Below are positions 8,523 to 50,891 of a DNA stretch of 64,000 nucleotides, piece after piece. The notes under the pieces are model-generated. The model had not been told where the DNA came from. It saw only the letters and a list, made by a program, of their open reading frames with translations, and did no database searches. The stretch lies in contig NZ_AP014637.1 in assembly GCF_000829415.1 (NCBI RefSeq), forward strand, positions 5,287,001 through 5,351,000, written 5' to 3'. Within the stretch, counting starts at the first letter, position 1. Each line of letters begins with the position of its first letter. Position numbers and translations under genes: made by a program. The DNA is from Pseudomonas sp. StFLB209 (GTDB lineage Bacteria > Pseudomonadota > Gammaproteobacteria > Pseudomonadales > Pseudomonadaceae).

Positions 8523-8577
8523 GCCTGCAAGCTCCCCATCGTTAGAGTGTTCGATGGGAATGAGCAATCAGAGCAGT

Positions 8578-10291: not shown

Positions 10292-10308
10292 GAAGACTGG
10301 AAGTCAAC

Positions 10309-10331
10309 GGAAGTAATAAAAGATTACTTCC
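10309..10331. promoter_or_regulatory. Perfect inverted repeat upstream of the ECF sigma gene
   Basis: GGAAGTAAT and ATTACTTCC form a perfect 9-bp inverted repeat around a 5-bp AT-rich centre. It lies in the 95-bp gap between the sigma factor gene and the LOV kinase gene, just upstream of the longest sigma start. The size and spacing suit a dimeric repressor. No run of T follows, so it is not an intrinsic terminator. Confidence 0.4.
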
Positions 10332-10386
10332 ATATACAAAAAATGAATATCAGCATAAACGCTACCGCGCCTCACTGATGGCCGAA

Positions 10387-11988
10387 TCAGGCAATCCCGT
10401 TCGGCCCATCCAGCACCTGCCGGACCTTGCGCGCCAGGTCGTGGGGCATGCACGGTTTGGACACCACATCGAACTCCGAGCCGCCAATGTCGGTGCGCTC
10501 GATGGAGTTTTCCGCGTAGCCGGTGGTGAGCAGGACCTTGACTCCCGGATAACGACGCCTCACCTCGCGGGCCAGCATCACGCCGTTCATGCCGCCGGGC
10601 ATGATCAGGTCGGTAAACAGCAGATCATAGCGGGCGCCGGATTCGAACTTGCTCAACGCTTCGCGGGCGTTGTAGACGATTTCGGTGGTGTAGCCGTAGT
10701 CGTCCAGCACCATACGCGCCAGTTCTGCGACGTCCGGGCGGTCTTCGACGATCAGGATGCGTTCGCTGCCCTGGCGCCGCTCGGGCACGTAATGGACTTC
10801 ATGGTGAGCGACGCTGGCCTCATCGACCGGGAAGTACAGACGCAAGGTGGTGCCAACGCCCTCTTCGGTGTAGATGCGCGCGGCACCGCCGGACTGTTTG
10901 GCAAAGCCATAGACCATCGACAGGCCGAGGCCCGAGCCCTTGCCTTCGTCCTTGGTGGTGAAAAACGGGTCCATGACCCGCTCACGGATGCTGGCCGGCA
11001 TGCCGATGCCGTTGTCGGTGATCGCAATGCTCACGTAATGCCCCGGCAGCAGACCGTCATGGGACATGCCGGCCAGGTCATGAATTTCCAGGTTGCGGGT
11101 TTCGATGAAGATTTTCGGCTCAGGCCTGCCGACCAGCGCGTCGCGGGCATTGGCGAAGATGTTGAGCAACGCGACTTCGGCCTGGGTCGGGTCGATCCGG
11201 CAATTGCCCAAGGTCGGGTCAAGATCGGTTTCCACCTGCACATCGGCACTGAAGGTGCGCTCGATCATCGGTTGCATGGCGCCCACCAGGCCATTGAGGT
11301 TGAGCACCCGACCATGCAGTTTCTGCTTGCGGGCGAAGGCCAGCAATTGCTTGGTCAGGGTGCTGGCGCGCTCCACGGCGGCCTTGGCGTGGTAGACGCT
11401 GCGCTGCACGCGCTGGCTGTCAATCTGAGGTTTCTCGGCAGCGCTGCCGATCAGATCGATGTAGCCGCCCATGACCTGCAGCAAGTTATTGAAGTCGTGA
11501 GCAATGCCGCCGGTGAGTTGCCCGAGGGCTTCCATTTTCTGGGACTGGCGCAGCGCGTCTTCGGCATCACGGCGGCGGCTGACATCCAGTTGCGAGGCGA
11601 AGAAATAGATCAGGTCGCCGTTCTCGTTAAAGATCGGCGAAATAAACAATGCGTTCCAGAAACTCGAACCGTCTTTGCGGTAGTTAAGAATCTCGGTCGA
11701 CACGTCCTTGCGCTGAGCAATCGCCTCGCGCACGCTGCGGACCATTTCAGGGTCGGTTTCAGGCCCCTGCAGGAAGCGGCAGTTGTGCCCCAGCACCTCC
11801 TCGCTGCTGTAGCCGGTCATGTTCAGGAAGGCTTTGTTGGCAAACAGGATCGGATTGTCCGGCCGGTTCGGGTCAGTGACGATCATCGGCATGCGGGTGG
11901 TTTCCACGGCAGCGAAGAAGATGTTCTTGCCCAGCTGGGATATGTCCCCGGTGGCCGCATTGTCGACCCGTATCTTGTTGTCCGCCAC
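10387..11988 (-). CDS. LOV-domain hybrid histidine kinase with C-terminal receiver (blue-light sensor)
   Basis: Cytoplasmic sensor of 533 residues: LOV/PAS domain (about 25-140), PAC segment, HisKA and HATPase domains (about 150-390) and a receiver domain (about 408-525). The flavin-binding LOV signature GHNCRFLQG is intact, placing the photoactive cysteine at residue 70. The phosphoacceptor histidine is in [10 protein letters not shown] at 164, the N box is NARDAL, the G boxes are DNGIGM and [10 protein letters not shown], and the receiver aspartate is 460 ([10 protein letters not shown]). No membrane segment. The architecture matches the LOV-HK-RR proteins known from Pseudomonas syringae and relatives. 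The next gene downstream on this strand is the ECF sigma gene, 95 bp away; whether light feeds into that locus is unknown. Confidence 0.92.
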
Positions 11989-12140
11989 GCTGTGTTTCCC
12001 CGATGTCTGTTCGTCTTACTGGCTACGACTTGTCGAGCAGTAAAAGAGTTCGCTCAAGTGCCAGCATGACGTGACGCCAGCCGCCGGCCCGGCATCGAAT
12101 GACCATCCCTTTTTAGTTTATTGTCCCAAGGAACCCTGCG

Positions 12141-36514: not shown

Positions 36515-37405
36515 ATGAATCCGCGTCGTCTTACCCCGTCCATGTCATTGCTGATCGCTTTCGAGGCGGCGGCCCGGCATGGCAGCTTCACCAAGGCCGC
36601 CGATGAGCTGGCGCTGACCCAGAGTGCGGTGAGCCGTCAGGTTCAGGCACTGGAGGCGCAGCTGGAGGTCGAGCTGTTCAAGCGCGATGGCCGGCGCATC
36701 GAACTGACCACCGCAGGCGCGCTGTACCAGCATGAACTGGCCGCCGCACTGGGGCGCATCCGCAGCGCCACCTTACAGACCATCGCCCACAAGTCGCAAA
36801 GCGGCACCTTGAGCCTGGCAGTGCTACCGACCTTTGGCTCGCGCTGGCTGCTGCCGCAGATGCATGACTTTTATGCCCGGCACCCCGGCTCGGTGGTGCA
36901 TATCCATTCGCGCATTGCCTCAGGCGACCTGAGCGCCGCTTCGGCGGATATGAATGCGCTGATTTGCGTCGGTAACGGCAGTTGGCCGGGGTACATTGCG
37001 CATCCGCTGATGGCCGAGGAACTGCTGGTGATTGCCAGCCCGAGCGCCCTGCCCGACCATGCCGGCATGCGCCCTGCGGATGTCGCCCAGCGTTCGCTGC
37101 TAAGCGTGGTATCGCGGCCCAACGCCTGGTCGGACTGGTTTGAGCATCATGGGCTGGACCACCACATCATGCGCCCGGGGCCGAGTTTTGAGGTGACCTC
37201 GCATTTGATTCAGGCGGTAGCGGCCGGGATTGGCATTGCGCTGGTGCCCAGTGTGCTGGTGCGCGATGAGCTGGCACGTGGCGAGCTGGTCAGCCTGTTT
37301 GCACCGATGGACAGCGGACGCCGCTATTACCTGGCCTATCCGACCCGCTTCCAGAACCTGCCGGCGTTGGTGGTGTTTCGGGATTGGCTGTTGAATAGTT
37401 TGTAG
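36515..37405 (+). CDS. LysR-family regulator (GcvA-like)
   Basis: 296 residues. The helix-turn-helix is LIAFEAAARHGSFTKAADELALTQSAVSRQVQALEAQL, typical of the GcvA/AmpR branch, followed by a periplasmic-binding-like effector domain (LPTFGSRWLLPQMHDFYARHPG, then VTSHLIQAVAAGIGIALVPS). It is divergent from ydiJ with a 167-bp gap, the classical arrangement for a LysR regulator and its target. Its 3' end faces the end of the dehydrogenase gene at 37424. Confidence 0.88.
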   Translation: MNPRRLTPSMSLLIAFEAAARHGSFTKAADELALTQSAVSRQVQALEAQLEVELFKRDGRRIELTTAGALYQHELAAALGRIRSATLQTIAHKSQSGTLSLAVLPTFGSRWLLPQMHDFYARHPGSVVHIHSRIASGDLSAASADMNALICVGNGSWPGYIAHPLMAEELLVIASPSALPDHAGMRPADVAQRSLLSVVSRPNAWSDWFEHHGLDHHIMRPGPSFEVTSHLIQAVAAGIGIALVPSVLVRDELARGELVSLFAPMDSGRRYYLAYPTRFQNLPALVVFRDWLLNSL

Positions 37406-37423: not shown

Positions 37424-38374
37424 TCAGTACCCACGCTCAAAATCCACTACATCACCCAGCGGCTGGTCTTTGTGATACCGCAGCAGGTTGGCGACGAAGT
37501 GTTCGACGATGTTGTGCCAGATCACGCCGCTGGCCGGGGATACGTGGGGCGACAGGCGCACTTTGGGGTGTTTGTAGAAGGGGTGGTCAGCCGGGGTCGG
37601 TTCTACGGCGGTGACGTCGAGGGTGGCGCGGCTGAGCTGGCCGGCGTCCAGCGCGTCGAGCAGCGCGGCTTCGTCGATCAGGCTGCCGCGGGCGATATTG
37701 ACCAGGTGCAGGCCCGGTTTGGCGTGGCTGAGCAGAGCCTTGTCGACCAGTTGCCGGGTGGATGAGGTGGCCGGTGCGGCCAGTACCACGTGGTCGGATT
37801 CGGCGAACAGTTTTTCCAGGCTTTCGGCGCGTTCGACTCCCGGTACATCGAAGGGTTTGCCCGAACGGTTCACCGCGATCACCCTGACCCCAAGCGCTTG
37901 GGCCCGCACTGCCAGGTCACGGCCGATGGCCCCAAAGCCGACGATGCCCAGCGTGCTGCCGCTCAGTTGTTGCAGCGGGAAGCGCTGCCACTGTTCGGCG
38001 CTGTCGATCCAGACCTGCGGAAACTGTTTGACCTGGGCCAGGATCGCCGCCAGGGCGAATTCGGCCACCGCCACCGAGGCTGTGCCGCGCGCCGACGACA
38101 CCGGCAATTGATCGAACAGCCAGGCCGGGTAGCCGTCGATGCCCGACGAGGTCAGTTGCACCCACTTGAGGTTGAACGGCCAGCCCGCCGGCTGCTCCGG
38201 CAGTTCCTGAGTGAGAAAATTACCGAAGAACGGCCGGGTCAACAGAATGCTCGCCTCGGGCGGCACCTGCGGCGCGCCCTGGCCGATGGCAACGATGGTG
38301 TACTCCGGCAGGCGCTGGCGCAGCAGCGCGTTGATTTCTTCATCGTGCTGGCTGGCGATCACGGTGTGGGACAT
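37424..38374 (-). CDS. D-isomer-specific 2-hydroxyacid dehydrogenase, free of Cys and internal Met
   Basis: 316-residue NAD(P)-dependent dehydrogenase. The nucleotide-binding motif is GIVGFGAIGRDLAVRA, followed by NIARGSLIDEAALLDALD (catalytic Arg region), VTAVEP (Glu) and LSPHVSPASG (His), so the Arg-Glu-His triad is complete. CAGGAA lies upstream of the ATG. The only sulfur amino acid in the protein is the initiator Met, a composition shared with other genes of this cluster and typical of proteins made during sulfur starvation. It is 81 bp downstream of the ABC ATPase gene on the same strand. Confidence 0.88.
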   Translation of the reverse strand: MSHTVIASQHDEEINALLRQRLPEYTIVAIGQGAPQVPPEASILLTRPFFGNFLTQELPEQPAGWPFNLKWVQLTSSGIDGYPAWLFDQLPVSSARGTASVAVAEFALAAILAQVKQFPQVWIDSAEQWQRFPLQQLSGSTLGIVGFGAIGRDLAVRAQALGVRVIAVNRSGKPFDVPGVERAESLEKLFAESDHVVLAAPATSSTRQLVDKALLSHAKPGLHLVNIARGSLIDEAALLDALDAGQLSRATLDVTAVEPTPADHPFYKHPKVRLSPHVSPASGVIWHNIVEHFVANLLRYHKDQPLGDVVDFERGY

Positions 38375-38455
38375 GGATCAGTTCCTGTTTGATTTGCTTG
38401 ATAAAGCGATGCTAGCAATCCGCGCGTGATGCCGAAAATGAATTAAAAATCTAAG

Positions 38456-40105
38456 CTAATATGCATTTCCATAATTAAGCGCCAACGCAGCTTCAGGTAC
38501 TTGAGTATCGAGCCAGAGCCTTCCCGGCACATCAGCGAGCAACTTCGCGGTGTAGTCGGACGACGGCGCCTGAAACACCTGCTCGCAGGCGCCCTGCTCC
38601 ACCACCTTACCGTCGCGCATCACCACGACATGATCGGAAATCTGCCGCACCACGGCCAGGTCATGGGAGATGAACAGATAACTCAGGCCCAGACGCTGCT
38701 GCAATTGCCCCAGCAGCTTGAGGATCTGCGCCTGCACCGAGGCATCCAGCGCCGACAGCGCTTCGTCGAGCACCAGCAGCTCCGGCTCCAGCGCCAGGGC
38801 ACGGGCAATCGCCACGCGCTGGCGCTGACCGCCAGACAACTCGCCGGGCTTGCGCTGCAACAGATGGGCCGGCAGTTCGACCTGCTCCAGCAGACTCGCC
38901 GCACGCGCCCGGCGTGCAGCGCGCTCGCCAATGGCAAACGCATGCAGCGGCTCGCTGATGATCTGCTCCAGGGTCCAGCGCGGGTCAAGTGACGCATAAG
39001 GGTTCTGGTAGACGATCTGAATGCGCTGGCGCAGGGGCTGCCAGGCGCGCCGCGACAGGCGGCTCAGGTCTTGCCCGGCAAACAGCAGTTGGCCACGGTC
39101 GGCCCGCTCCAGGCCGAGAATCAGCCGCGCCGTGGTCGACTTGCCCGACCCCGACTCGCCCACCAGGCTGGTGGTGCCATGGCGTAGCACATTGAAAGAC
39201 ACCTCATCGACCGCTGCGCGCCCAGGCACGCGCCAGTTGGAGAAATCCTTGCGCAGCAGATGCACCTGCAACAGCGGCTCGGCACGCAACACCCTGTCAC
39301 GGCGCGCTTGCGGTGCATCGCTCAGGGTCGGTGCCGCATCGAGCAATTGCCGGGTATAGGCGTGCGCCGGGTGCTGGAAAATCTGCTGCGCCGGGCCGCT
39401 TTCAACGATGCGCCCGCGCTGCATCACGATCAGCCGGTCAGCGCGATCCAGCGCCACCCCAAGGTCGTGGGTAATCAGCAATACCGCTGTGCCGCGCTGG
39501 CGGGCCAGGGTTTGCAGACGATCAAGCACCTGGCGCTGCACGCCGACGTCCAGCGCACTGGTGGGCTCATCGGCAATGATCAGCGGTGGGTCGTTGGCCA
39601 GCGCAATGGCGATCAGAATGCGCTGGCGCATGCCGCCCGACAACTGATGCGGATAGCTGCGCGCCACCCGCTCGACTTCATTGAGGCCAACCTGCGCCAG
39701 CAACGCTGGCACCCGTGCGCGGGCCTCGCGGCGCGCTACACCGTGTACGGTCATGGCCTCGCTGAGTTGCTGGTCGATGCGTTTTACCGGGTCCAGCGAC
39801 AGGCCGGGGTCTTGCGGCACAAAGCCCACCAGCCGGCCGCGGCGCTGACGCCACTGGCGCTCGCCCAGGCCGACCAGCTCTTCGCCGGCCAGGCGAATAC
39901 TGCCGGCTTCAATCACCGCGTTACTGGCCAACAGGCCAATCAGCGCCCCGGCCGTGGTGGACTTGCCCGAACCGGACTCACCAACCACTGCGACGATTTC
40001 CCCCGGATGGATGGCAAAACCCACCTGATCAATGCCCTCGACCCGCCCGGCGGTGCTGCAGTAACCGATGCGCAGACCTTCAACCTGCAAGATTGGCTGG
40101 CTCAT
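38456..40105 (-). CDS. Dipeptide/nickel-type ABC transporter ATPase, two fused ATPase domains
   Basis: 549 residues with two complete nucleotide-binding domains, equivalent to DppD and DppF in one chain. Walker A motifs are [14 protein letters not shown] and [14 protein letters not shown]; signature motifs are LSGGMRQR and LSGGQRQR; Walker B regions are [12 protein letters not shown] and [12 protein letters not shown]. The ATG at 40105 overlaps the preceding permease stop as ATGA and has GGAGAA upstream; an upstream frame extension to 40390 is rejected. The import substrate is set by the binding protein at 42.1 kb. Confidence 0.92.
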
Positions 40106-40968
40106 GGGTGTTCTCCCTGAATGTCCTGAATGGCCCGCGCCAACTGGTTGGCCGCCAGCACCACCGAAGCCAGCACCAGCCCCGGCAGCGTGGTGTACCA
40201 CCAGGCCGCGACCATATAGTTGCGTCCTTCGGAAATCAGCAGCCCCCACTCCGGTTGCGGCGGCGGCGCGCCAAAGCCGAGAAAGCTCAAGGCCGACACC
40301 GACAGCACTGCCGCACCAAACTCCAGCGCCGCCAGGGCCAGTACCGGCGCGGCGGCATGGGCAAGGATATGCCCACGAATGATCCCCCATGGCCCGACCC
40401 CGCTCACCAACGCCGCCTCGACAAACAACCGGCTGCGCCAGTGCAGCACTTCGCCGCGCACTAGGCGGGCAAAGGTCGCCACTGACGACAGGCCCACCGC
40501 CAGGGCGATGTTCAGGGTGCCGAAGCCCAGTACGGTGATGATCGCCATGGCCAGCAACAGCGACGGAATCGCCATCAACACCTCGACCATGCGCATCAAC
40601 AAGGCATCCAGCCGACCACCGAAATAGCCGGCGACCGTGCCCAGTAAGATGCCCACCAACAAGGCGATCAGCACCGCCAGCGCGGTGGCTTGCAGCGATA
40701 ACGCCGCCCCATGCACGGCGCGGCTGTAAAGGTCGCGGCCCAGATGGTCAGTGCCGAACCAGTGCTGCGCGCTGGGCGGTTGCAGCGCTTCGGCCGGCAG
40801 CCCCAGCAACGGGTCCTGGGTGCTGAATAAAGTCGGCCAGAGCGCCCAGGCCAGGGCCAGGCTCAGCACGACGATGCCCAACGGCAGCAACGGCCGTTTG
40901 CGCAGCACCGGCCGCACGCGGGCCAGCCAACCGGTACCGTTTGCGGCATATAGAACGGTGGTAGTCAT
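40102..40968 (-). CDS. ABC transporter permease, DppC/OppC type
   Basis: 288 residues, about six helices, with N-terminal WFGTDHLGRDLYSRAVHGAALSLQ typical of the OppC N-domain and an EAA-like loop (EAALVSGVGPWGIIRGHILAHAAAP). Overlaps the upstream permease and the downstream ATPase genes by 4 bp at each end (ATGA), so the three are translated as a unit. Confidence 0.9.
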   Translation of the reverse strand: MTTTVLYAANGTGWLARVRPVLRKRPLLPLGIVVLSLALAWALWPTLFSTQDPLLGLPAEALQPPSAQHWFGTDHLGRDLYSRAVHGAALSLQATALAVLIALLVGILLGTVAGYFGGRLDALLMRMVEVLMAIPSLLLAMAIITVLGFGTLNIALAVGLSSVATFARLVRGEVLHWRSRLFVEAALVSGVGPWGIIRGHILAHAAAPVLALAALEFGAAVLSVSALSFLGFGAPPPQPEWGLLISEGRNYMVAAWWYTTLPGLVLASVVLAANQLARAIQDIQGEHP

Positions 40969-41972
40969 GGGGCACCTGCGCGGATACGTGGATCAAGCAA
41001 CGGATACAGCAGGTCCACCAGCAGGTTGACCAGAATGAAGATCACCGCGGCGAGCAGCACCACGCCTTGCACCATGGGAATGTCCTGATTGCTCACCGCC
41101 GCCTGAGCCAAACGCCCGACGCCCTCACGGGAGAACACGGTTTCGGTGACCACCGACCCCGCCAGCAGATTGCCCACCAACACTCCGGACAGGCTCAACA
41201 CCGGCACCGCCGCGTTGTGCAGCAGGTGCACGAACAGCAAGCGCCGGCGGCTCAGCCCCTTGGCCAGCAGGCTTTCGGCGAACGGCTGGCGCGAGACATT
41301 GACCAGTGAGCGCAGCAGCACCTGGGCAATCACCGCCGCGGTGGGAATGGCCAGGGTCGAAGCTGGCAACACCAGCGCAGCAAAACCCTGGTTACCCATG
41401 GCCGGAAACCAGTGCAGCTTGAACGAGAAGCCTTGTAACAGCAGCAGCCCGACCCAAAACGTGGGCAACGACACCGACAACGCCGGCAGCCCGAGCAAGG
41501 CGTCGCGCAGCCAGCGCCAACGCACCAGGCTGGCGGCCAGCGCCAGACCGATACCGCCCAGTAACGCCAGGCACAACGCCAGCAGGCTCAACTGTGCGGT
41601 GGCAGGCAATGCCTGGAGCAAAGCCGCCGCCACCGGCTCGCCGCTCTGGATCGAATGACCGAAGTCCAGTTGCAGGGCTTTGTACAAGGCAATGCCGTAC
41701 TGCACCGCCAGCGGCTCGTCCAGATGGTATTCGGCGCGCAACGCCAGAATCTGCGCCTGATCCGCCGCCGAGGGTTCACCACTCTGGTTAAGCATGATGC
41801 TTACCGGGTCACTGGGCAGCGCATAGAGAATCACGAACGACACCGTGAACGCTGCCCACAGCACCACTGCGCTCTGCCACAGACGGTGCAACGCGGCAGC
41901 GATCGTCTGACGCCAAAACAATCCCTGGCCTGGCGCGCCAGGGCTGGCGGTTATCGTTGAAAGGTCAGTCAT
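40965..41972 (-). CDS. ABC transporter permease, DppB/OppB type
   Basis: 335 residues with six helices. LWAAFTVSFVILYALPSDPVSIML and the region LDEPLAVQYGIALYKALQLDFGHSI are typical of DppB-type proteins, as is the cytoplasmic loop AKGLSRRRLLFVHLLHNAAVPVL. Followed with 4-bp overlap by the DppC-type gene. The 81-bp gap before it contains half of a REP-like sequence (GCTGAAGCAGCTCCTAC). Confidence 0.9.
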   Translation of the reverse strand: MTDLSTITASPGAPGQGLFWRQTIAAALHRLWQSAVVLWAAFTVSFVILYALPSDPVSIMLNQSGEPSAADQAQILALRAEYHLDEPLAVQYGIALYKALQLDFGHSIQSGEPVAAALLQALPATAQLSLLALCLALLGGIGLALAASLVRWRWLRDALLGLPALSVSLPTFWVGLLLLQGFSFKLHWFPAMGNQGFAALVLPASTLAIPTAAVIAQVLLRSLVNVSRQPFAESLLAKGLSRRRLLFVHLLHNAAVPVLSLSGVLVGNLLAGSVVTETVFSREGVGRLAQAAVSNQDIPMVQGVVLLAAVIFILVNLLVDLLYPLLDPRIRAGAP

Positions 41973-42053
41973 TGGGTTACCTATTGGAGAGCCCCTTGGA
42001 GAGCCGTGGCCCGTTCGCTGCTGAAGCAGCTCCTACGGAGGCGCGTACGGCGT

Positions 42054-43652
42054 TCATGGCATCTGCAGCCAGGTATCGAAGAACTGCAAGCGCGACGAAG
42101 CCTCGTAATGCAGGCCATGTACCCGTTTGCCATGGGCGATCACCGTGGCCAGTTCGATCAGCGGAATCACCTGGCCCTGTTCGATCAACTCACGGCTCAC
42201 CGCGTCGACCCGTTGCTGGCGCAGCGCCGGGTCGAGGGTGGCCGCCGGAGCTTCGAGCTGTTTGTCCAGCTCGCCTGGCTGACGCTTGCCATAGTTACGC
42301 CCGTTCACATGAAACAGCGTGCGCAGCACATCCGGGTCAGCGCGGGTCAGGTTGTAGAAATGCAGGCTGATATCGCCGCTGTTCATCAGTGCGGTGACCT
42401 GGCTGATGGTGGTACGGTTCAGCCGCAGCTCAACCCCGACGCTTTTCAGTTGCTGCTGGATCAGCTCCAGAATCGGCGTGTTCTGCCAGTAATCGACCTT
42501 CAGGCTCAGGCGCTGGCCGTCCTTCTGCCGGATGCCGTCAACGCCCGGCAGCCAGCCGGCCTCATCGAGCAGCCGCTTCGCGCCGTCAGGGTCATAGGTC
42601 AGCAGCGCGGAAAAGTCCGTATAGAACGGCGTACTGCTGGCCAGCACCGAGGTCGCCGGGCGCTGGTAACGGGAAATGATGCTGCGCAGTTGCTCGCGAT
42701 CAATCGCCTTGATCAGCGCCTGACGCACCCGCAGGTCGCGGTACAACGGGTTGTTCAGGTCGGGGGTGAGGTTGTACACCACCCCAGGGTTGGCGCGGGT
42801 CAGCAAGGGGATGCCCTGAGCCTCCAGGGTTTTCTCGTTCTGCGCCACCACCCCGGTATCGACGTCGATCTGCCCGGACAACAGGCTGCCCAGCCGCACC
42901 CCGGACTCAGGCACGATGATGAACTCGATGCCGTCCAGCCAGGCCTTGCCGGTGTGCGCCGCCAGTGACGAGCCCCAGTTGTAGTCGTCACGGCGCGACA
43001 GGCTGACCTTCTGGTTGTGCACAAAACTGTCGAGTTTGAACGGCCCGCTGCCAATCAACTTGCCTTGGCAACGCTCGGCCGGGTCGCTGGCCAGCGTGGC
43101 CGGTGCCAGCAATCCCAGGCTCATGGTCGAGGTGGCCTGCAGGAACTGCGCATTGGGTTGTTTGAACTCAATGACCAGGGTACGGCTGTCGGGGGTGTCG
43201 ATGCGCTGCAGGCCCGTCAGATACGTACCGGCCAGGATCGAGCGGGCGCCCAGGGCGATGATCTTCTCGAAGTTGGCCTTGACCGCCTGGGCATCCAGTG
43301 GCGAGCCATCGCTGAAGCTCACCCCGTCGCGCAGGTAAAAGGTAAAGCGCCGGGACTCGGCGTCGATCTCCCAGCGGCTGGCCAGCCACGGCACGATCTC
43401 GCCAGTCTGTGGGTCCTGGTCGGTCAGCGAATCGACCAGTTGCCGACCGACATTCAACGCGGTGTTATTGCCGGCCTGATGCGGATCGACACAATTGGGG
43501 TCGCCATCCAGCGCGACCTTCAGCACCCCGCCACTGACCGGCGTGCCGACCGCCGCCTGGCTGGCAGGCGGCGGCGACTCGCCACAGCCGGCCAGCAGCA
43601 AGGCTAATGCCAGCGCGGCGGGTTTGAACAACGTTTGCACCGGTTTGCTCAT
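42054..43652 (-). CDS. Dipeptide-type ABC transporter substrate-binding lipoprotein
   Basis: 532 residues of the SBP_bac_5 family. The N-terminus ends in a lipobox (ALLLAGC, Cys23), so it is a lipid-anchored binding protein. Family features are RFTFYLRDGVSFSDGSPLDAQAVKANFEKI and LIKAIDREQLRSII. Only four Met and three Cys including the lipidated one, so it is also poor in sulfur. Its ATG overlaps the monooxygenase stop (ATGA). The family takes peptides, opines, glutathione and similar molecules; an organosulfur ligand is likely from the context but not shown. Confidence 0.88.
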   Translation of the reverse strand: MSKPVQTLFKPAALALALLLAGCGESPPPASQAAVGTPVSGGVLKVALDGDPNCVDPHQAGNNTALNVGRQLVDSLTDQDPQTGEIVPWLASRWEIDAESRRFTFYLRDGVSFSDGSPLDAQAVKANFEKIIALGARSILAGTYLTGLQRIDTPDSRTLVIEFKQPNAQFLQATSTMSLGLLAPATLASDPAERCQGKLIGSGPFKLDSFVHNQKVSLSRRDDYNWGSSLAAHTGKAWLDGIEFIIVPESGVRLGSLLSGQIDVDTGVVAQNEKTLEAQGIPLLTRANPGVVYNLTPDLNNPLYRDLRVRQALIKAIDREQLRSIISRYQRPATSVLASSTPFYTDFSALLTYDPDGAKRLLDEAGWLPGVDGIRQKDGQRLSLKVDYWQNTPILELIQQQLKSVGVELRLNRTTISQVTALMNSGDISLHFYNLTRADPDVLRTLFHVNGRNYGKRQPGELDKQLEAPAATLDPALRQQRVDAVSRELIEQGQVIPLIELATVIAHGKRVHGLHYEASSRLQFFDTWLQMP

Positions 43653-44995
43653 GCCACCTGCCCCGCTGTATGACGGTTGCGAATGTACGGCAAGCCCAGA
43701 TTGTCGCGCAGGGTCTGGCCTTGGTATTCGGTGCGAAACAGCCCGCGGCGCTGCAACTCCGGCACCACCTCTTTGGCGAAGCCTTCGATGCCTTGGTGCA
43801 GCCCGGAAAACATCACATTGAAGCCGTCGGCAGCATCGGCCTCGAACCAGCCTTGCAGGTCGTCGGCGATGCTCTGGGCGGTGCCGATCAGAATCCGGTG
43901 GCCGCCGGCGGTGAGCTTGTTGAACAGCTCACGCACGGTGGGCCGTTCACGGCGAATCAGCTCGAACACCAGTTTCTGCCGGCTCTTGTGAGTATTGGTG
44001 TCGAACTGCTCCGGCGGCAGCGGCACCACTTCGTCGAACGGCAGCTCGGACAAATCAAAGCCCAGGCTGGCGAACTTCGAGATGCTGCGCAGAAAGGTTT
44101 TCGGTTCCAGCAGTTCCTGCAACTGGTCATAGCGGGCCTGCGCCTCAGCCTGGGTCTTGCCGACCACCGGAGAAACGCCGGGCAGGATCTTCAAGTGATC
44201 GGGGTCGCGGCCGAATTCTGCCGCCCGCGCCTTGATCTCGCGGTAGAACGTCTGGCCCTGCTCGATGGTGTGCTGGGCGGTGAAAATCAGCTCACCGGCC
44301 CGCGCCGCCAAGGCACGCCCGGAGTCCGACGAGCCGGCCTGGGCGATCACCGGATAACCCTGCACGGGACGTGCGGCATTGAGCGGGCCACGGACCTGAA
44401 AGTGCTTGCCGTGGTGGTCGAGCACATGCAGCTTGGCGGTGTCGAGAAAACGCCCGCTGGCCTTGTCTTGCACAAAGGCATCATCGGCGTAGCTGTCCCA
44501 CAGGCCAGTGACCACGTCGTAAAACTCTTCGGCGCGCTGGTAACGATCAGCGTGCAACACATGGGCGTCGAGATTGAAATTCTCACCGCCGCCCAGCGAC
44601 GTCACCAAGTTCCAGCCGACCCGGCCACCGCTGAGGTGGTCGATATTGGCCAGTTTGCGGGCCACGTTGTAAGGCTCGTTGTAGGTGGTGCTGGCGGTGC
44701 CGATCAGGCCGATATGCCGGGTGACCAGGGCCAGTGCCGGGAGCAGGATCAACGGGTCCCAGCGCACGCTGTTGGGGCCGCGCTCCAGCACCGCCAGGTC
44801 CGGTTCGACATTGACCGTGTCATTGAAGAACAGCGCATGAAAGCGCGCTGCTTCGAGGGTCTCGGCGATCCAGCGAAAGTGCCCGAAGTCGCGAAACGAG
44901 TCAGGTGCGGCGCTCTCGTGGCGCCAGGCCGAACCCATGATGCCGGCGCTGGGGATGAAGGCGCCGAGCAATAGTTGTTTCTGCGTTGTGCTCAT
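43649..44995 (-). CDS. FMN-dependent monooxygenase, NtaA/SnaA/DszA family (LLM class)
   Basis: 448-residue flavin monooxygenase with a luciferase-like TIM barrel. Family motifs include AWRHESAAPDSFRDFGHFRWIAETLEAARFHALFFND, GRVGWNLVTSLGGGENFN and PVIAQAGSSDSGRALAARAGELIFT. Relatives cleave C-N or C-S bonds (nitrilotriacetate, dibenzothiophene sulfone, sulfides) using FMNH2 from a separate reductase, which is not in the window. No Cys and only three Met. AGGAG precedes the ATG. Placed between the TonB receptor and the lipoprotein genes, so it likely attacks what these import. Confidence 0.9.
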   Translation of the reverse strand: MSTTQKQLLLGAFIPSAGIMGSAWRHESAAPDSFRDFGHFRWIAETLEAARFHALFFNDTVNVEPDLAVLERGPNSVRWDPLILLPALALVTRHIGLIGTASTTYNEPYNVARKLANIDHLSGGRVGWNLVTSLGGGENFNLDAHVLHADRYQRAEEFYDVVTGLWDSYADDAFVQDKASGRFLDTAKLHVLDHHGKHFQVRGPLNAARPVQGYPVIAQAGSSDSGRALAARAGELIFTAQHTIEQGQTFYREIKARAAEFGRDPDHLKILPGVSPVVGKTQAEAQARYDQLQELLEPKTFLRSISKFASLGFDLSELPFDEVVPLPPEQFDTNTHKSRQKLVFELIRRERPTVRELFNKLTAGGHRILIGTAQSIADDLQGWFEADAADGFNVMFSGLHQGIEGFAKEVVPELQRRGLFRTEYQGQTLRDNLGLPYIRNRHTAGQVA

Positions 44996-45010
44996 GAAAG
45001 CTCCTACAGA

Positions 45011-47443
45011 TCAGAAGTCATAGCTCAGGCGCGTGTACCAGAAGCCGCCATAAGGGTTGAACGGTGAGGCGTTGCCGAATTTCGGGAAGCCGTTGACGTC
45101 ACCGGCCGGGTAGCCGTTGTTGTCGGCACGCACGTCGAACAGGTTGTTGGCGCCCACGGCCACGCCCAGCTGGTCGGTGACCGCATAGGCGACTTCCAGG
45201 TCGGTGATCCACTTGGCGCCGAAGGTCGAGTCGAAGTTGGGGTTGGCATCGCGCACCGTGACCTTGTCGTAACGGGTTACGCCGAGGTTGATGTCGAAGC
45301 GGTCGATCTTCCACTGGCCGCTGAGAATCAGCTTGGTCTCCGGGTTGGCCACGGTCAGGTAACCCTGGGCAACCCGGTCGAACAACTCCAGCCCGCTGCC
45401 GGATAACGCAGCCGGCGTCGACTTGATGCTGTCCAGCTCGGTCTTGTTGTAGTTGAACGCCACGCCGTACTTGACGCTGCCAAAGCGCCCGTAATCGACC
45501 CGATAGTCGGTAACCAGATCCACGCCACGGGTGGTGGTGTCTGCGGCGTTGGTGAAGTACTTGACCCGGTAACCGGGCGTATAACCCAGTTGCTGCAGCA
45601 CCTGGTTAACCCCGCTGCCAAACAGAAAGCCGGTCAGCGCCACCCGGTCCTTGATCTCGATCTGGTAGGCATCGAGGGTCACGTTGGCTTGCGGCAATGG
45701 CTTCCAGGTCAGGCCCAGGCTGATGTTGCGCGACTTTTCCGGGTCGAAGTCTTCGGCGCCCAGGGCGCGAGCCAGCGGCGAGTCGACCCGTGCGGTCTTG
45801 GCTTCGACGAACTGCGCCACACCGTTGACCAAGGTGTACTGGTTAGAGGTCTGGGCATAGGTCGATTGCGACAGCGACGGCGCCCGAAAGCCATTGCTCA
45901 GCGTGCCGCGCAGGGCGAACTCCGGGGTGAAGTCGTAGCGCACCGAAACCTTGCCGCTGGCGGTGTTGCCCGAGCTGTCGTCATATTTTTCGAAGCGCCC
46001 GGCCAGGCCCAGGTACAGCTTGTCAGTGGGGTTGATGCCCAGGTCCAGGTAAGTGGCGTAGCTGTTGCGGCTGTTCTGCCCGGCGTCTTCCGGGGTCAGG
46101 GTGATCGCGCCTTGAGCGCCCACGGCGGCGGGCTGGCCGGCCAGCGGCCCGCTCGGGTAGACATAGCCACCGTTGATCCAGGCTTCGACATCTTCGGACT
46201 GGGTCTTGTAGCGCTCGTGACGATGCTCGGCACCCCACGACACTTGTAGCGGCTTGGCGAGCCCCACATCAAAGGCGCGGGTCAGGTCGAGGTTGCTGGT
46301 CCACTGATCGAAGGTGTTGGTGTAACTGTCGAAGCGGGTCGGGCTGCCGGGGCCCAGCGAGGCGTTAAGGCTCTCGTCCGAGCCGGCCAGCGACTTGGCG
46401 CGGCCAAAGGTCGAACTCAGGTCCCAGTTCCACTCGGCGAGCTGGCCCTTGGCACCGGCAGCGGCCTGAAAGTCGGTCTCGTCCAGGGTGTAGAACGGTG
46501 CGGTGCCGTCCGGGTAAATCTGCGGGATGATGTTGGTCGAGTTGGGCCGCCGGAAGTTCTGCCCGCCCCTGGCGTCGCGCTGGCTGTAGGTTGAGAACGA
46601 GTACAGGGTCAGGTCGTCATTGACTGGCAGTTCGGCGTTATAGCTGAGGTTGTAGCCCTTGATCTTCGGCAGACCGTTGCGCTGCGGCTGGCGGTCGGCG
46701 CCGGCCTCGCGTGCATCGCCGGGAAAGTAGAAGTTACCGGTCGCGTCCCTGGAGCGCACCGCCGTCTGTTGCGATTTGGCATCCACCGAGACGTTGAAAA
46801 AGCCATCGTTGGGCAAGGCAAAGCCGGAGTTGACCGCACTGCGAATCGTCCCGCCGTCGCCGCCTTCGTAGTATTCGCCATACTGGGTGCTGACCGAGCC
46901 GCCATGGTCGGTCTGCTTGAGGATGATGTTGATCACCCCCGCGATGGCATCGGAGCCGTACTGCGCCGAGGCACCGTCGCGCAGCACTTCCACATGGTCG
47001 ATGGCGCTGACCGGAATCAGGTCCAGGTCCACCGGGTTGGTGCCATAGGCGGCAGTGGAATCGAGGTTGATCACCGAGCTGTTGTGGCGCCGCTTGCCAT
47101 TGACCAGCACCAGCACGTTGGAACCGTTCAGGCCGCGCAGGCTATAAGGCCGGGCAATGCTGTCGTTGGAGCTACCCGACGGCCGCTGACTGAACGACGG
47201 CAAGGCCTTTTCCAGCGCGCCGCGCAAGCTGGCCTGGCCGGTTTTTTCCAGTTGCGCGCCACTGACCACGTCAATAGGCGCCGGGCTGCTGGTCACGGTG
47301 CGGGCTTCACTGCCGCGTGAGCCGGTGACCACCACGGTTTCCAGGCTTTCAACAGGTTCGGCGGCATGCACCGGCAACAGCGTGAAGCCAGCCAGCAGCA
47401 TCGGTGCCAGCGCCAGGGAGGGCTGAGGGAACGTCAGTTTCAT
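45011..47443 (-). CDS. TonB-dependent receptor with no Cys or Met in the mature protein
   Basis: 810 residues. Signal peptide (to about residue 27, VHAA), plug (ETVVVTGSRGSEARTVTSSPAPIDVVSG, then LRGLNGSNVLVLVNGKRRH and DHVEVLRDGASAQYGSDAIAGVINII) and a barrel ending YTRLSYDF. No STN domain. After Met15 in the signal peptide not one Met or Cys occurs, an extraordinary composition for a protein this large. That points to expression under sulfur limitation and to uptake of a sulfur source. The gene is 6 bp from the SsuA-like gene upstream and 15 bp from the monooxygenase gene downstream. Confidence 0.92.
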   Translation of the reverse strand: MKLTFPQPSLALAPMLLAGFTLLPVHAAEPVESLETVVVTGSRGSEARTVTSSPAPIDVVSGAQLEKTGQASLRGALEKALPSFSQRPSGSSNDSIARPYSLRGLNGSNVLVLVNGKRRHNSSVINLDSTAAYGTNPVDLDLIPVSAIDHVEVLRDGASAQYGSDAIAGVINIILKQTDHGGSVSTQYGEYYEGGDGGTIRSAVNSGFALPNDGFFNVSVDAKSQQTAVRSRDATGNFYFPGDAREAGADRQPQRNGLPKIKGYNLSYNAELPVNDDLTLYSFSTYSQRDARGGQNFRRPNSTNIIPQIYPDGTAPFYTLDETDFQAAAGAKGQLAEWNWDLSSTFGRAKSLAGSDESLNASLGPGSPTRFDSYTNTFDQWTSNLDLTRAFDVGLAKPLQVSWGAEHRHERYKTQSEDVEAWINGGYVYPSGPLAGQPAAVGAQGAITLTPEDAGQNSRNSYATYLDLGINPTDKLYLGLAGRFEKYDDSSGNTASGKVSVRYDFTPEFALRGTLSNGFRAPSLSQSTYAQTSNQYTLVNGVAQFVEAKTARVDSPLARALGAEDFDPEKSRNISLGLTWKPLPQANVTLDAYQIEIKDRVALTGFLFGSGVNQVLQQLGYTPGYRVKYFTNAADTTTRGVDLVTDYRVDYGRFGSVKYGVAFNYNKTELDSIKSTPAALSGSGLELFDRVAQGYLTVANPETKLILSGQWKIDRFDINLGVTRYDKVTVRDANPNFDSTFGAKWITDLEVAYAVTDQLGVAVGANNLFDVRADNNGYPAGDVNGFPKFGNASPFNPYGGFWYTRLSYDF

Positions 47444-47449
47444 AAGGGA

Positions 47450-48424
47450 TCAGGCTTCCAGAATGGTTTTAAAATCGTCGCGCCACAGCGGTCGTACATC
47501 GACGCGCTGGCGAATCAGGCGATGCTCGAAAAAGCTGTCAGCGACCTGCTGCGCCGAAACGATGGCCGGCTCGCTGATCGACTCCAGGCGGATCGGCGCA
47601 CCGCGCTCACGAAACTGGCGCAGGTACAGGTCGGCGCTGATACCGGTCAGTTCGGCACTGTGTTGTGCCCAAGCCTCGGGGTTGGCGGCAACCCAGGCCC
47701 AAGTCGCCCGCTCGCGGCGCAGAAAATCTGCGATCTGCGCCCGTTTGAGCGGGTCATCCAGGGTGGCGCGGCGGGCGGCAATCACCGTATTGCCCACAAA
47801 CGGGCTGGCGTTTTCCAGGCGCAGCGCCGGCACGCCGGCGTTGCTTTGTTCGGTGGCTTGCAGGGCACTGATACCACCGGCCACCAGCGCATCCAGGTGG
47901 CCGCTGCGAAAGGCAATCAGCGCCTCCTGCATCGGCATGGGCACCGGTTTGATGTCTTGCAGGGTCAAGCCGTGACGGCTGAGCAAGTCGAGCAGGTAAT
48001 ACTGGGTGTTGGTGCCGCGCACATAACCGACACTGCGGCCTTTGAGATCGGCCACCTGAGCGATACCGGTGTCGCCACCCACCACCAGCCCCAGGTCCTG
48101 GCGGGCGCCAGGCAGTACCGCGACCACCGCCAGCGGCACTTGGGCCAGCGCTGCAAAAATTGGCGGCACTTCACTCATTTGGGTGTAATCCAGACTGCCG
48201 CTGCGCAGCGCCTCAAGCACGATATTGCCCCCGGCAATGTCGACCCACTGCACCGGATACGGCGTGTCAGCCTGGCCGGCCAGCTCGATGAACGACGCCG
48301 CCGAGCCCTTATAGCGCCAGACCCGCAGCGGTTCCTGCGTAGCCGCCAGTGCCGGAGCCAGCAGCCCGGCGGCGCCCAGCGCGGCCGCGCCACGCAGCAG
48401 CTTGCGTCGTGTCAGGTCGGTCAT
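47450..48424 (-). CDS. SsuA/TauA-type aliphatic sulfonate-like substrate-binding protein
   Basis: About 324 residues with a twin-arginine-like signal (LTRRKLLRGAAALGAAGLLAPALA). The NMT1/SsuA-type fold is indicated by LRVWRYKGSAASFIELAGQA, GSLDYTQMSEVPPIFAALAQ and VADLKGRSVGYVRGTNTQYYLLDLLSRHGL. No Cys and four Met. The ATG at 48424 has GAGG nine bases upstream. There is no SsuB/SsuC partner here, so it may pair with a distant transporter or play a receptor-side role. Relatives bind sulfonates, taurine or nitrate. Confidence 0.83.
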   Translation of the reverse strand: MTDLTRRKLLRGAAALGAAGLLAPALAATQEPLRVWRYKGSAASFIELAGQADTPYPVQWVDIAGGNIVLEALRSGSLDYTQMSEVPPIFAALAQVPLAVVAVLPGARQDLGLVVGGDTGIAQVADLKGRSVGYVRGTNTQYYLLDLLSRHGLTLQDIKPVPMPMQEALIAFRSGHLDALVAGGISALQATEQSNAGVPALRLENASPFVGNTVIAARRATLDDPLKRAQIADFLRRERATWAWVAANPEAWAQHSAELTGISADLYLRQFRERGAPIRLESISEPAIVSAQQVADSFFEHRLIRQRVDVRPLWRDDFKTILEA

Positions 48425-48435
48425 GATCAACCGCC

Positions 48436-49266
48436 TCAGTCGAGCAAGTCAGGCTGTTGGGCGATGATCTCGTCCCACAGCGGCTGGAAGTTCAGCCACG
48501 AAAACAGCTCGTTGCGGGCGCGGCTTTGCGCAGTGACCGGGTCGGTTTGCGGCACCACCGGCACACCGGCAGCACGGGCCAGCAAATGCGAGCGCGCCAC
48601 GTCCTCGGCCAGAATGAAGCGCCAGGCAGCGCTCTCGACCGTCTCACCGACCGTCCAGACCCCGTGGTTCTGCCAGAACAGCAAGTTGTTGTTGGCAAAG
48701 CTGTCGACAAACGCTGCGGTCACTCGATCACGGTCGTTGTCGAGGCGGCCGTCGCCGCTGCGCAGCTCATGGCGGCGGAAGATCGCCTGATCGGCAACAA
48801 AGGCACCGGCTTCGGCAGTAATAGGCTCGAACAACTGGCCAAGCGCTGACCAGGTGCGGCCATAAAAGCCGTGCAAGTGGGCGATGCCGACCACCTCAGG
48901 GCGCGCATTCTGGATACCGTCGTGCAGCTCCAGCGCGCTGGTGTTAAGCAGGCCTTCGCCCTCCACCACCTGCCCCTCACGGTTGACCCGCAACAGGCTG
49001 GACACGCTGATTTGCGAGAACGGCACACCCAACGGGTTGATCCAGTAATGCTCCGGTTCGATCGGGTCGCGGGCAGTGAAATGCCCGGCCAGCCCGACTT
49101 CGAACCCGTAGCGGGCAAACAATCGATAAGACGCCGCCAGACGCTGCTTGCGGTGCAGGCGCTCCTGCTGCAGGTCGTCGTGGTGCGGCACCGCCTCAAG
49201 GTTCAAGCGGTTATTGCCATGGGGCAGGCTCAGCAAGCTGTTGGAATAAGGTTGTCTCTGGCTCAT
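48436..49266 (-). CDS. Class II aldolase/adducin-family protein, free of Cys and internal Met
   Basis: 276 residues. The metal-site histidines are in LAGHFTARDP and HLHGFYGRTW, with a further His in FWQNHGVWTVG, as in fuculose-phosphate-aldolase-type enzymes. The only sulfur amino acid is the initiator Met. It is the first gene of the minus-strand cluster, so its promoter must lie in the 584-bp gap shared with the divergent binding-protein gene. Role in the pathway unknown: it could cleave a carbon backbone after the monooxygenase step. Confidence 0.87.
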   Translation of the reverse strand: MSQRQPYSNSLLSLPHGNNRLNLEAVPHHDDLQQERLHRKQRLAASYRLFARYGFEVGLAGHFTARDPIEPEHYWINPLGVPFSQISVSSLLRVNREGQVVEGEGLLNTSALELHDGIQNARPEVVGIAHLHGFYGRTWSALGQLFEPITAEAGAFVADQAIFRRHELRSGDGRLDNDRDRVTAAFVDSFANNNLLFWQNHGVWTVGETVESAAWRFILAEDVARSHLLARAAGVPVVPQTDPVTAQSRARNELFSWLNFQPLWDEIIAQQPDLLD

Positions 49267-49850
49267 GCCGGTTACTCGTGCTGGCGCTCGGCTTGGCGAG
49301 CTTTATTCAGAGCGAACACAGGCGCAAAGCGCCGTGCAGGGCTCAGATTCGGGTTCGGACTCGGGGTCGATAAGGAGGATCTACGTCTGGGGCGACGGAT
49401 CGGCAGGCGGTGTCAGGTGCTCATGTACAGGAACCCTCGCATGGAATCGATATGGCTACAGCTCTCCTCCACCGTGCGAGGGGTCGGGTCGAGCGCGATC
49501 TTGTTGGGCCGGAATGTCAAAACCGGCCTGGTGACCAGAGTGCGTGGCGATCCTGCCACGCGGCAAACGCACATCCATACTGTGGCCGAGGATGCAGGGG
49601 AGCGTCATGAACGGCCATGGCTAGAACATAAACGCAGGTTGGTTGATCTGTAAAATTCCTTAATCGCATAACCTAATATTAATATTTGTTATTTATCGTT
49701 AATTTATTTATCTAAAAATCGCATAAGAAAGCACATTCGCCCGGCAGCGCTTCGAAACTATCGTTATTCAATATCGATATTTAAAAAATATTTTTAATAC
49801 CTATAAGATCCATGCATCGAATGCCACCACTGCCGAACACCGGAGCATGC
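49267..49850. promoter_or_regulatory. Divergent control region with repeated AATCGCATAA and AT palindromes
   Basis: 584 bp between two divergent, sulfur-poor genes. The left 380 bp is GC-rich with no convincing gene. The right part is very AT-rich for this genome and has a direct repeat of AATCGCATAA (49662-49671 and 49717-49726), the palindrome AATATTAATATT (49675-49686) and AATATCGATATT (49770-49781). These are candidate activator sites for both directions; a CysB-type or other sulfur regulator is the obvious suspect, but I cannot match a known consensus by eye. Confidence 0.45.
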
Positions 49851-50891
49851 ATGAACAAATCCACCCGCTTTCCTCGCCTCAGCCGCCTGGCCACCACACT
49901 GGGCCTGTGCACCAGCCTGCTGGCCGGCGCAGCCATGGTGCCTGCCACCGCCCAGGCTGAAGGCGAGATTCGCATCGCCGAACAGTTCGGCATCGTCTAC
50001 CTGCTGCTCAACGTGGTGCGTGACCAGAACCTGATCGAGAAACACGGCAAGGCCGACGGCCTGGAGATCAAGGTCGACTGGACCCAGTTGTCTGGCGGCT
50101 CGGCGGTCAACGACGCGCTGCTGTCTGGCTCGATCGACATTGCCGGTGCCGGTGTCGGCCCGCTGCTGACCATCTGGGACCGCACCAAGGACCGCCAGAA
50201 CGTCAAGGCCGTGGCCTCGCTGGGCAACTTCCCGTACTACCTGCTCAGCAGCAACCCCAACGTGAAGACCATCGCGGACTTCACTGAAAAAGACCGCATC
50301 GCCGTACCGGCAGTCGGCGTCTCGGTGCAGTCGCGTTACCTGCAGTACGCCGCTGCGCAGCTGTGGGGCGACAAGGAATTCAACCGCCTGGACAAATACA
50401 CCGTCAGCCTGCCGCACCCGGACGCCACAGCCAGCCTGATTGCCGGCGGCACCGAACTGAACGGCCACTTCTCCAACCCGCCGTTCCAGGATCAGGCACT
50501 GGCGAAAAACAAAGACGTGCACGTGGTGCTCGACACCTACAAACTGCTCGGCCCCAACTCGCCGACCGTGCTGTTCGCCACCGAAAAATTCCGCGCCGAG
50601 AACCCCAAGACCTACAAGGCGTTCATCGAAGCACTGGGTGAGGCCGAGGCCTACATCAAGAAAGACATCAGCGGCGCCGCCGACACCTACATCCGGGTCA
50701 GCAAGGCCAAGATCGACAAGGCCGAACTGCTGAAGATCATCGACAAACCCGAGTTCCAGTTCACCACCACCCCGAAGAACACCTACCCGCTGGCTGAATT
50801 CCTGTTCCGCGTGGGCGCGATCAAGAACAAACCGGCCTCATGGCAGGACTACTTCTTCCAGGACTCGTTCAAGCCGTTGCAGGGCAGTTGA
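49851..50891 (+). CDS. SsuA/NrtA-type ABC substrate-binding protein with sulfur-free mature chain
   Basis: 346 residues. The ATG at 49851 has GGAG six bases upstream and gives a signal peptide ending near ATAQAEG. NMT1-type fold: IRIAEQFGIVYLLLNVVRDQNLIEKHG, SGSIDIAGAGVGPLLTIWDR and AVPAVGVSVQSRYLQYAAAQLW. From residue 30 onward there is no Met and no Cys, as in other sulfate-starvation-induced periplasmic proteins. The gene is alone on its strand and followed by a strong terminator, so its transporter is elsewhere or it shares the minus-strand cluster's partners. Confidence 0.9.
   Translation: MNKSTRFPRLSRLATTLGLCTSLLAGAAMVPATAQAEGEIRIAEQFGIVYLLLNVVRDQNLIEKHGKADGLEIKVDWTQLSGGSAVNDALLSGSIDIAGAGVGPLLTIWDRTKDRQNVKAVASLGNFPYYLLSSNPNVKTIADFTEKDRIAVPAVGVSVQSRYLQYAAAQLWGDKEFNRLDKYTVSLPHPDATASLIAGGTELNGHFSNPPFQDQALAKNKDVHVVLDTYKLLGPNSPTVLFATEKFRAENPKTYKAFIEALGEAEAYIKKDISGAADTYIRVSKAKIDKAELLKIIDKPEFQFTTTPKNTYPLAEFLFRVGAIKNKPASWQDYFFQDSFKPLQGS

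Follow-up and report, generated by a model that had tools for sequence, protein, structure and literature searches.

Why should almost an entire gene cluster be built without methionine and cysteine, and what could such a cluster be for? This question is raised by a locus of Pseudomonas sp. StFLB209 that lies in a stretch of 64,000 nucleotides (the window; positions 5,287,001–5,351,000 of a single-contig 6.33-Mb genome) and that a preliminary description had linked to sulfur scavenging. Nine genes run from 49266 to 37424 on the minus strand with gaps of at most 81 bases or short overlaps, in the order aldolase-fold protein, SsuA-like binding protein, TonB-dependent receptor, NtaA/DmoA-family monooxygenase, family-5 binding protein, two permeases, double ATPase and D-2-hydroxyacid dehydrogenase, and a second SsuA-like binding protein is encoded divergently from this run. 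We consider it likely that 49266–37424 is one operon that takes sulfur from a scarce organosulfur compound when sulfate and cysteine are short. What is new here is a 22-nucleotide (nt) leader element that, by sequence comparison, is common to predicted scavenging operons of Pseudomonas.

The ten proteins together contain 29 methionine and cysteine residues (Met+Cys; start Met excluded in all counts) in 4,214 residues, whereas 121 are expected (binomial P = 4e-24, with residues taken as independent). The background, with a pooled Met+Cys content of 2.87%, was made up of 214 genes of at least 200 amino acids (aa), sampled at even intervals along the genome in 20 stretches of 20 kb; gene starts are those of our own caller. 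The dehydrogenase (37424–38374, minus strand like all nine genes; 316 aa) and the aldolase-fold protein (48436–49266; 276 aa) have no Met and no Cys after the start, as the preliminary description had stated. The receptor (45011–47443; 810 aa) contains one Met and no Cys, the flavin mononucleotide-dependent monooxygenase (43649–44995; 448 aa) two Met and no Cys, and the SsuA-like binding protein (47450–48424; 324 aa from an ATG start, with an RR-type signal by our own reading) three Met and no Cys; the three and four Met reported earlier for the latter two include the start. The divergent NMT1/SsuA-like binding protein (49851–50891, plus strand; 346 aa, with a longer start at 49812) has, in its 346-aa form, one Met and one Cys and neither residue past position 30, which agrees with the first count, and the earlier figure of about 1,700 residues free of both is reproduced by the sum 315 + 275 + 795 + 317. 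The importer genes, for which the preliminary description gave no counts, are less sulfur-poor, with Met+Cys counts of six each in the family-5 (dipeptide-type) binding protein, which is related to TIGR04028 (42054–43652; 532 aa), and the double-domain ATP-binding cassette (ABC) ATPase (38456–40105; 549 aa), and of five and four in ABC permeases B (40965–41972; 335 aa) and C (40102–40968; 288 aa). The adjoining ydiJ gene, described from the outset as rich in both residues, has 3.35% Met+Cys.

Family-matched controls within the genome sharpen this picture unevenly. The dehydrogenase, at 0%, was compared with 20 other family matches, including weak ones and two under the Pfam cut-off, that span 1.87–6.57%; because none of the 20 falls below 1.87%, a family effect is ruled out for this protein. 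The aldolase-like protein (0%) compares with 0.41–3.30% in four other family members, and the receptor (0.12%) with 30 of the 64 receptors listed for the genome, none of which is below 0.57%. Lower values were seen in another of the 64, which lies in the sulfur-poor island L054 (0.35%), and in a receptor-like protein of locus L049 that is not on the list (0.23%; start by our own reading). A family effect is weakened for the receptor, and the monooxygenase and the family-5 binding protein are unremarkable among their paralogues: in Met+Cys, the family-5 protein is only fourth lowest of 18 family matches and the monooxygenase fifth lowest among 15 loci examined (18 matches; 0.66% for the longest frame, 0.45% for the 448-aa start). 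Met+Cys of the cluster lies far below the genome and family backgrounds, with a family control that is clear for the dehydrogenase and weak for the monooxygenase and family-5 binding protein. Stretches around the monooxygenase paralogues of this genome also hold many sulfur-poor binding-protein, receptor, dioxygenase-like and monooxygenase genes (kinds read from their starts), some without any Met or Cys after the start; at L048:16473-17654 and L054:11534-13698 these are 393-aa and 448-aa monooxygenase-like proteins and a 273-aa protein. Since many other sulfur-poor islands exist in the genome and sulfur-assimilation proteins of Escherichia coli and yeast are depleted of sulfur according to part of PMC5513900, this depletion is a known principle, of which the cluster is a strong case. 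The notion that the poverty is special to the cluster was not borne out; it runs through the scavenging islands of this genome.

The poverty is conserved in related loci. Aldolase-like orthologues (n = 20) average 0.02% Met and 0.06% Cys, and receptor orthologues (n = 19) 0.18% Met and 0.01% Cys. Across 16 of the 17 full-core loci (all but L003), mean Met+Cys is 0.90% in 129 cluster genes and 2.36% in 117 other genes (at least 150 aa) of the same loci (Mann–Whitney P = 2e-13, the genes being related by descent); the site and orthologue counts given throughout are likewise related by descent and hence non-independent. The order of an eight-gene core, from the aldolase-fold gene to the ATPase, is kept in 17 of the 25 loci found via the monooxygenase and in 17 of 19 further loci, whose genomes overlap the first set. 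In L160 the monooxygenase and ATPase frames are each in two pieces and the SsuA-like gene is cut short, through decay or assembly error, and no SsuA-like binding protein was labelled in L166. Gene order places the dehydrogenase and the divergent binding protein as accessory to this core: the former is adjacent in L003 and the latter both there and in L001, a locus that stops short of the importer genes, and L012 has a dehydrogenase (52%) nearby on the opposite strand. The scavenging pathway of the preliminary description is retained, without these two genes as full members. The cluster is patchy: of 398 Pseudomonas genomes, 19 encode an aldolase orthologue with an identity of 66% or more. The closest named matches via the monooxygenase, each at 88%, come from Pseudomonas ovata and from a single isolate of P. 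viridiflava, in a search that may omit records almost identical to that of the window.

The monooxygenase belongs to the NtaA/DmoA family (TIGR03860; 527.8 bits, cut-off 279.7). Behind its best solved match, considered below, follow YtnJ/MoxC entries (~329–330 bits), which we take to be CmoJ, then 7e36 and then DszA (281 bits). Ethylenediaminetetraacetate (EDTA) monooxygenase (220 bits) and DmoA (207.6 bits) rank lower. CmoJ cleaves alkylcysteine sulfoxide by a Pummerer-type route, as set out in part of PMC10863075, and we infer from family membership that the window enzyme cleaves a carbon–sulfur (C–S) bond. The SsuA-like binding protein matches 2x26, an aliphatic-sulphonates-binding protein (E = 4e-23). 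No SsuC-type permease was recognised beside the two SsuA-like binding proteins, and no flavin reductase in the operon.

The aldolase-fold protein, called a class II aldolase in the preliminary description, has that fold but probably not the function of a sugar aldolase. Its best solved matches by sequence are NovR (142.5 bits), 4xxf (132.9 bits) and TqaM (94.4 bits). A structure model (mean predicted local distance difference test score 92.5) gave the same ranking in Foldseek: the four best hits are NovR (E = 7e-23 to 4e-22), followed by 4xxf and TqaM, and further down pyruvic oxime dioxygenase (4e-16) and FucA (2e-11). Identity to NovR is 33–35%, and three metal-binding histidines (H130, H132 and H201) are invariant in an alignment of 31 sequences; by these residues and by its fold the protein resembles the NovR/CloR/TqaM group. 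The catalytic Glu73 of FucA, named as such in part of PMC5216522, is replaced by Ala in the alignment with E. coli FucA, and on this residue the protein does not qualify as a class II sugar aldolase. CloR and NovR are iron oxygenases with three His ligands and a 2-oxo acid as substrate (PMC13111500, in part), and pyruvic oxime dioxygenase is an iron enzyme of the aldolase fold that lacks the FucA active residues (PMC5216522, same portion). A sugar aldolase is less likely because of the NovR-like fold, the three His residues and the Glu73 to Ala change; the protein probably oxygenates or decarboxylates a 2-oxo or 2-hydroxy acid, a role that would fit the neighbouring D-2-hydroxyacid dehydrogenase. 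Against the oxygenase assignment, 4xxf, an aldolase by name, scores just behind NovR.

Upstream comparison and genome searches located the leader element, CCGACCCC-TCGCAC-GGTGGAGG, at 49466–49487 on the minus strand. When the 40 sequences that precede the aldolase-fold gene were compared (the window included; several genomes are in both locus collections), 39 contained some form of ACCCGACCCC-TCGCAC-GGTGGAGG, with 31 distinct leaders. The copy of L009 has diverged: one arm is altered and the loop has five bases, as it does in L005, L007, L152 and L155. A search of 398 genomes with up to three mismatches returned 41 leader sites and two for the reversed control. Loci were available for 30 of the 41: this operon accounts for 12, and among the remaining 18 there are 13 that precede other scavenging-type genes, so that 25 of the 30 are tied to this operon or other scavenging genes, all with both arms intact. 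Four loci have a changed arm, three inside predicted frames (L181, L193 and L202) and one with no gene found behind it (L188), and L199 has intact arms and no gene within 300 nt. A copy at 945373, with three mismatches and surroundings that read as coding, was rejected as a chance match.

A search of 249 Pseudomonas genomes for the exact pattern CCGACCCC-N6-GGYGGAGG gave 102 sites, spread over 61 of them, and no site for the reversed control. We examined 70 distinct sites (30 with loci and 40 of the 72 others), of which 56 are intergenic by our caller and 14 lie in a predicted frame; among the latter, L231, L237, L248 and L291 were taken as chance coding hits, and most of the rest as over-long starts of the same gene. 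A coding start follows on the same strand within 300 nt at 55 of the 56 intergenic sites, and 50 of these 55 genes have at most 1.2% Met+Cys (median 0.30%). They encode, as read from their starts, SsuA-like binding proteins, two monooxygenase types, TonB receptors, TauD-like dioxygenases and the present operon, and also an old-yellow-enzyme-like protein and amine-oxidase-like proteins. The stricter pattern CCGACCCC-NNNCMH-GGYGGAGG was absent from 273 other genomes of the class. Rfam 15 had no match in window positions 49200–49860 up to E = 5, and none at the element in seven further sources up to E = 1. No publication naming the element was found in titles and abstract starts, a search outside which most subscription papers fall.

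The element does not mark every sulfur island or define the whole sulfur regulon. Its use as a general sulfur-regulon signal was rejected on the 13 of 14 monooxygenase-paralogue stretches that lack it, and a weight-matrix scan limited to intergenic sites of the window and 34 genome stretches found two above 11 bits, in the window and in L054. The third exact copy of the genome (G000:C1:4702617-4702638, locus L214), which lies outside the scanned stretches, stands before a flavin adenine dinucleotide (FAD)-binding-type protein with 3.5% Met+Cys, and similar pairs are seen in other genomes (L239, L276 and L290).

Statistics on the element were based on 65 of the 70 sites, after L231, L237, L248 and L291 (coding, atypical centre) and L285 (atypical centre) had been dropped; removal of near-identical upstream sequences left 34 sites for promoter statistics. 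A strong -10-like hexamer ends 9–24 nt before the leader in 24 of the 34, compared with a mean of 9.0 in shuffles, none of 1,000 reaching 24 (the -10 weights were set after viewing the sequences, and the shuffles preserve single-base composition only). The best such hexamer ends 9–13 nt before the leader in 21 of the 34, and a start codon lies 24–41 nt after it in 27 of 33. In the window copy, TTGACA at 49515–49520 (minus strand) is a possible -35 hexamer and the -10 is indistinct. With a -10-like hexamer just upstream and a start codon shortly downstream, the leader seems to form the beginning of the transcript.

More distant relatives bear on the substrate. A sister set with aldolase relatives of 44–48% occurs in 18 other Pseudomonas genomes. 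In the 11 sister loci fetched (L168–L178), script labels place the dehydrogenase, aldolase-fold protein and SsuA-like binding protein together, with the receptor next to them in 10, and no NtaA/DmoA-type monooxygenase was labelled in the 20 kb of each. Neighbour families were checked in L173, where Pfam identifies a four-rhodanese protein, a CDO_I thiol dioxygenase, a membrane dipeptidase, a flavin amine oxidase and a Rid-family protein; an acyl-CoA-dehydrogenase-like protein there has SfnB as its nearest NCBIfam model, under the cut-off. In L025 (P. reidholzensis, 666-12196), the monooxygenase and aldolase-fold genes accompany a binding protein–permease–ATPase set and two TldD/PmbA-type proteins (one a weak match), and are followed by a relative of 3-mercaptopyruvate sulfurtransferase (140.9 bits against a cut-off of 250). 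The settings of the sister loci and L025 suggest a thiol- or peptide-like organosulfur substrate. One-mismatch, leader-like strings with a five-base loop were seen in sister loci L172 and L174.

In the mechanism that we favour, the TonB receptor and the dipeptide-type ABC importer would admit a fairly large or peptide-like substrate, as their families suggest, and the monooxygenase would oxidise it at the C–S bond in the manner of CmoJ/YtnJ and DszA, freeing a sulfur group. The 2-oxo or 2-hydroxy acid part may be handled by the dehydrogenase and by the aldolase-fold protein, the latter probably an iron oxygenase with three His ligands like NovR and TqaM. The near-absence of Met and Cys, observed directly in the composition, would have been selected since these proteins are made under sulfur limitation, and the operon would be one of a set of Pseudomonas scavenging operons whose near-constant 22-nt element has a putative regulatory role. 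Sulfur scavenging is supported by the poverty of the orthologues, by a monooxygenase that scores above the NtaA/DmoA cut-off and has CmoJ/YtnJ and DszA among its near relatives, by a leader common to SsuA-like, TauD-like and monooxygenase-type genes, and by sister-locus relatives beside a thiol dioxygenase and a multi-rhodanese protein. Several observations weigh against it. The SsuA-like protein falls short of the SsuA model (TIGR01728; 120.4 bits, cut-off 163.5) and the family-5 protein short of TIGR04028 (E = 3e-104; 349.3 bits, cut-off 468.5). L025 is less sulfur-poor and lacks the leader element; an exact copy of the leader is absent from the 11 sister loci, is found in one (L054) of the 14 stretches around monooxygenase paralogues, and occurs three times in this genome. 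The clear exception among genes behind the leader is the FAD protein of normal sulfur content (2.7–3.5% Met+Cys in L239, L276, L290 and L214).

Other adverse points favour a different explanation, that the cluster degrades an aminopolycarboxylate or another sulfur-free compound for carbon or nitrogen and that low Met and Cys is a by-product of periplasmic and outer-membrane families. The best solved match of the monooxygenase, 3sdo (338.7 bits), is named a nitrilotriacetate monooxygenase, EDTA monooxygenase matches too, and other NtaA/DmoA members use sulfur-free substrates (nitrilotriacetate, EDTA, alkanes); TonB receptors are moreover sulfur-poor as a class, at 0.57–2.43% in the 30 examined. 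The two proteins without any Met or Cys, however, belong to soluble-enzyme families and have no signal-type start by our reading, the 20 other dehydrogenase-family matches all reach at least 1.87%, the poverty is kept over the 20 aldolase-like orthologues, and the leader is common to SsuA-like, TauD-like and monooxygenase-type genes. We regard a sulfur-free substrate as improbable. Chance or a base-composition bias has even less to recommend it: 2 of the 214 background genes also lack both residues and permease C alone shows no significant deficit (P = 0.17), but the 29 residues seen against 121 expected, the 2.36% of other genes in the orthologous loci and the 3.35% of ydiJ refute it, and its probability is close to nil.

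Whether the leader would act in a sulfur-scavenging operon as RNA or as DNA was considered separately. A hairpin of its arms, C-C-G-A-C-C-C-C and G-G-Y-G-G-A-G-G, can be drawn manually and then contains a tandem G.A/A.G step, a C.Y mismatch and a six-base loop; four leader cores folded by program gave ~-6 kcal/mol, with pairing that was not alike in all. The exact search fixes both arms by construction and permits no covariation test on them. The constancy of the arms is nevertheless not wholly an artefact of that search, judging by the mismatch search, because the 25 scavenging-linked sites kept both arms with up to three mismatches allowed anywhere (the L009 leader did not). A second, operon-specific hairpin has a 5′ arm (CCCTCGCA) at 49475–49482 that overlaps the 22-nt element and a 3′ arm (TGCGAGGG) at 49434–49441, followed by a mini open reading frame (mini-ORF; ATG AGC ACC TGA) at 49413–49424, all on the minus strand. 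The GAGGG of the hairpin partner and a mini-ORF of the form ATG-NNN-ANC-TGA/TAG follow the leader in 29 of the 40 upstream regions; the mini-ORF is three codons long, lies downstream of the hairpin and varies in its second codon. In this hairpin 96.9% of cells pair, versus 33–66% when the arms are slid, and there is a single compensatory change, which 48 of 500 shuffles reach; this covariation is not significant and does not prove the hairpin.

The alternative, that the element is a DNA operator at which a repressor or activator binds immediately past the promoter, has close to an even chance of being the correct account, and is at least as likely as an RNA element. The element is an imperfect dyad placed 9–13 nt after the best -10-like hexamer in those 21 of 34 non-redundant sites, and arms fixed by the search provide no covariation in favour of RNA. 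Against an operator, the two arms differ from each other identically at every exact site, and the orientation is one-sided: same-strand starts lie downstream at 55 of 56 sites, whereas a coding start on the other side, on the opposite strand, is found at 14 of 56 (with less than 600 nt of upstream DNA at 30 of them). The hairpin with tandem G.A mismatches is a further point, but the stability computed for the four cores is modest and their pairing is not uniform.

A more ambitious combination, in which the leader CCGACCCC-NNNC(C/A)H-GGYGGAGG is a new RNA control of sulfur starvation at the 5′ end of the mRNA and the NovR-like protein provides a new route to C–S cleavage, seems to us doubtful, although worth stating. 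The tandem-G.A hairpin would hide GGAGG, as a rule without a start codon of its own, and in this operon would compete with the second hairpin, whose 3′ arm would feed the three-codon mini-ORF, such that translation of the sulfur-poor proteins might track sulfur or Met supply. The NovR-like enzyme would hydroxylate beside the sulfur of an S-substituted 3-mercaptopyruvate; the resulting hemithioacetal would split into a thiol and glyoxylate, and the dehydrogenase would reduce the glyoxylate. An RNA role, if confirmed, would make the element a sulfur-responsive leader that the searched RNA library lacks. Should the aldolase-fold protein prove to be an iron oxygenase with a thio-oxo-acid as substrate, C–S bonds would be broken in a new way.

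Two neighbouring features of the window deserve mention. A LysR gene at 36515–37405 was considered as a regulator of the cluster and set aside; it is divergent from ydiJ, is nearest to the GcvA model but under its cut-off, and is probably outside the cluster. About 40 kb away lies a second import cluster (window positions 645–8522 with G000:C1:5281044-5287000; L028 and L053), which contains a monooxygenase paralogue (49%), ABC genes, a family-5 binding protein and two very large TonB receptors of 958 and 982 aa with 0.63% and 1.12% Met+Cys.

In comparison with known systems, the operon resembles the ssu, msu, sfn and tau clusters of Pseudomonas in combining a flavin monooxygenase with an SsuA-type binding protein, and differs from them in having an importer of the dipeptide type, a TonB receptor, a NovR-like protein and a D-2-hydroxyacid dehydrogenase. 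The response of cys, ssu, msu and sfn genes to sulfate starvation is reported in part of PMC12581299. The 22-nt element offers a sequence handle for Pseudomonas organosulfur-scavenging operons whose substrates are not apparent from their genes. CmoJ/YtnJ and DszA belong to the same family as the window monooxygenase (~330 and 281 bits), but the CmoJ system includes a CmoO partner, an acetylase and a deacetylase, none of which was recognised in the window operon, where C–S cleavage is predicted from the family. The aldolase-fold protein shares with NovR/CloR, TqaM and pyruvic oxime dioxygenase a fold among its closest solved matches, the three metal His residues and the replacement of FucA Glu73 by Ala; NovR and CloR serve antibiotic synthesis, whereas a role in sulfur scavenging is predicted here at 33–35% identity. 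The family-5 binding protein is related to the TIGR04028 (KPN_01854) family, yet is not a member by its cut-off. Finally, the cluster shares sulfur depletion with the assimilatory proteins known from E. coli and yeast (PMC5513900, in part) and from cyanobacteria, and goes beyond them in that whole enzymes have no Met beyond the start and no Cys, in several islands of one Pseudomonas genome.

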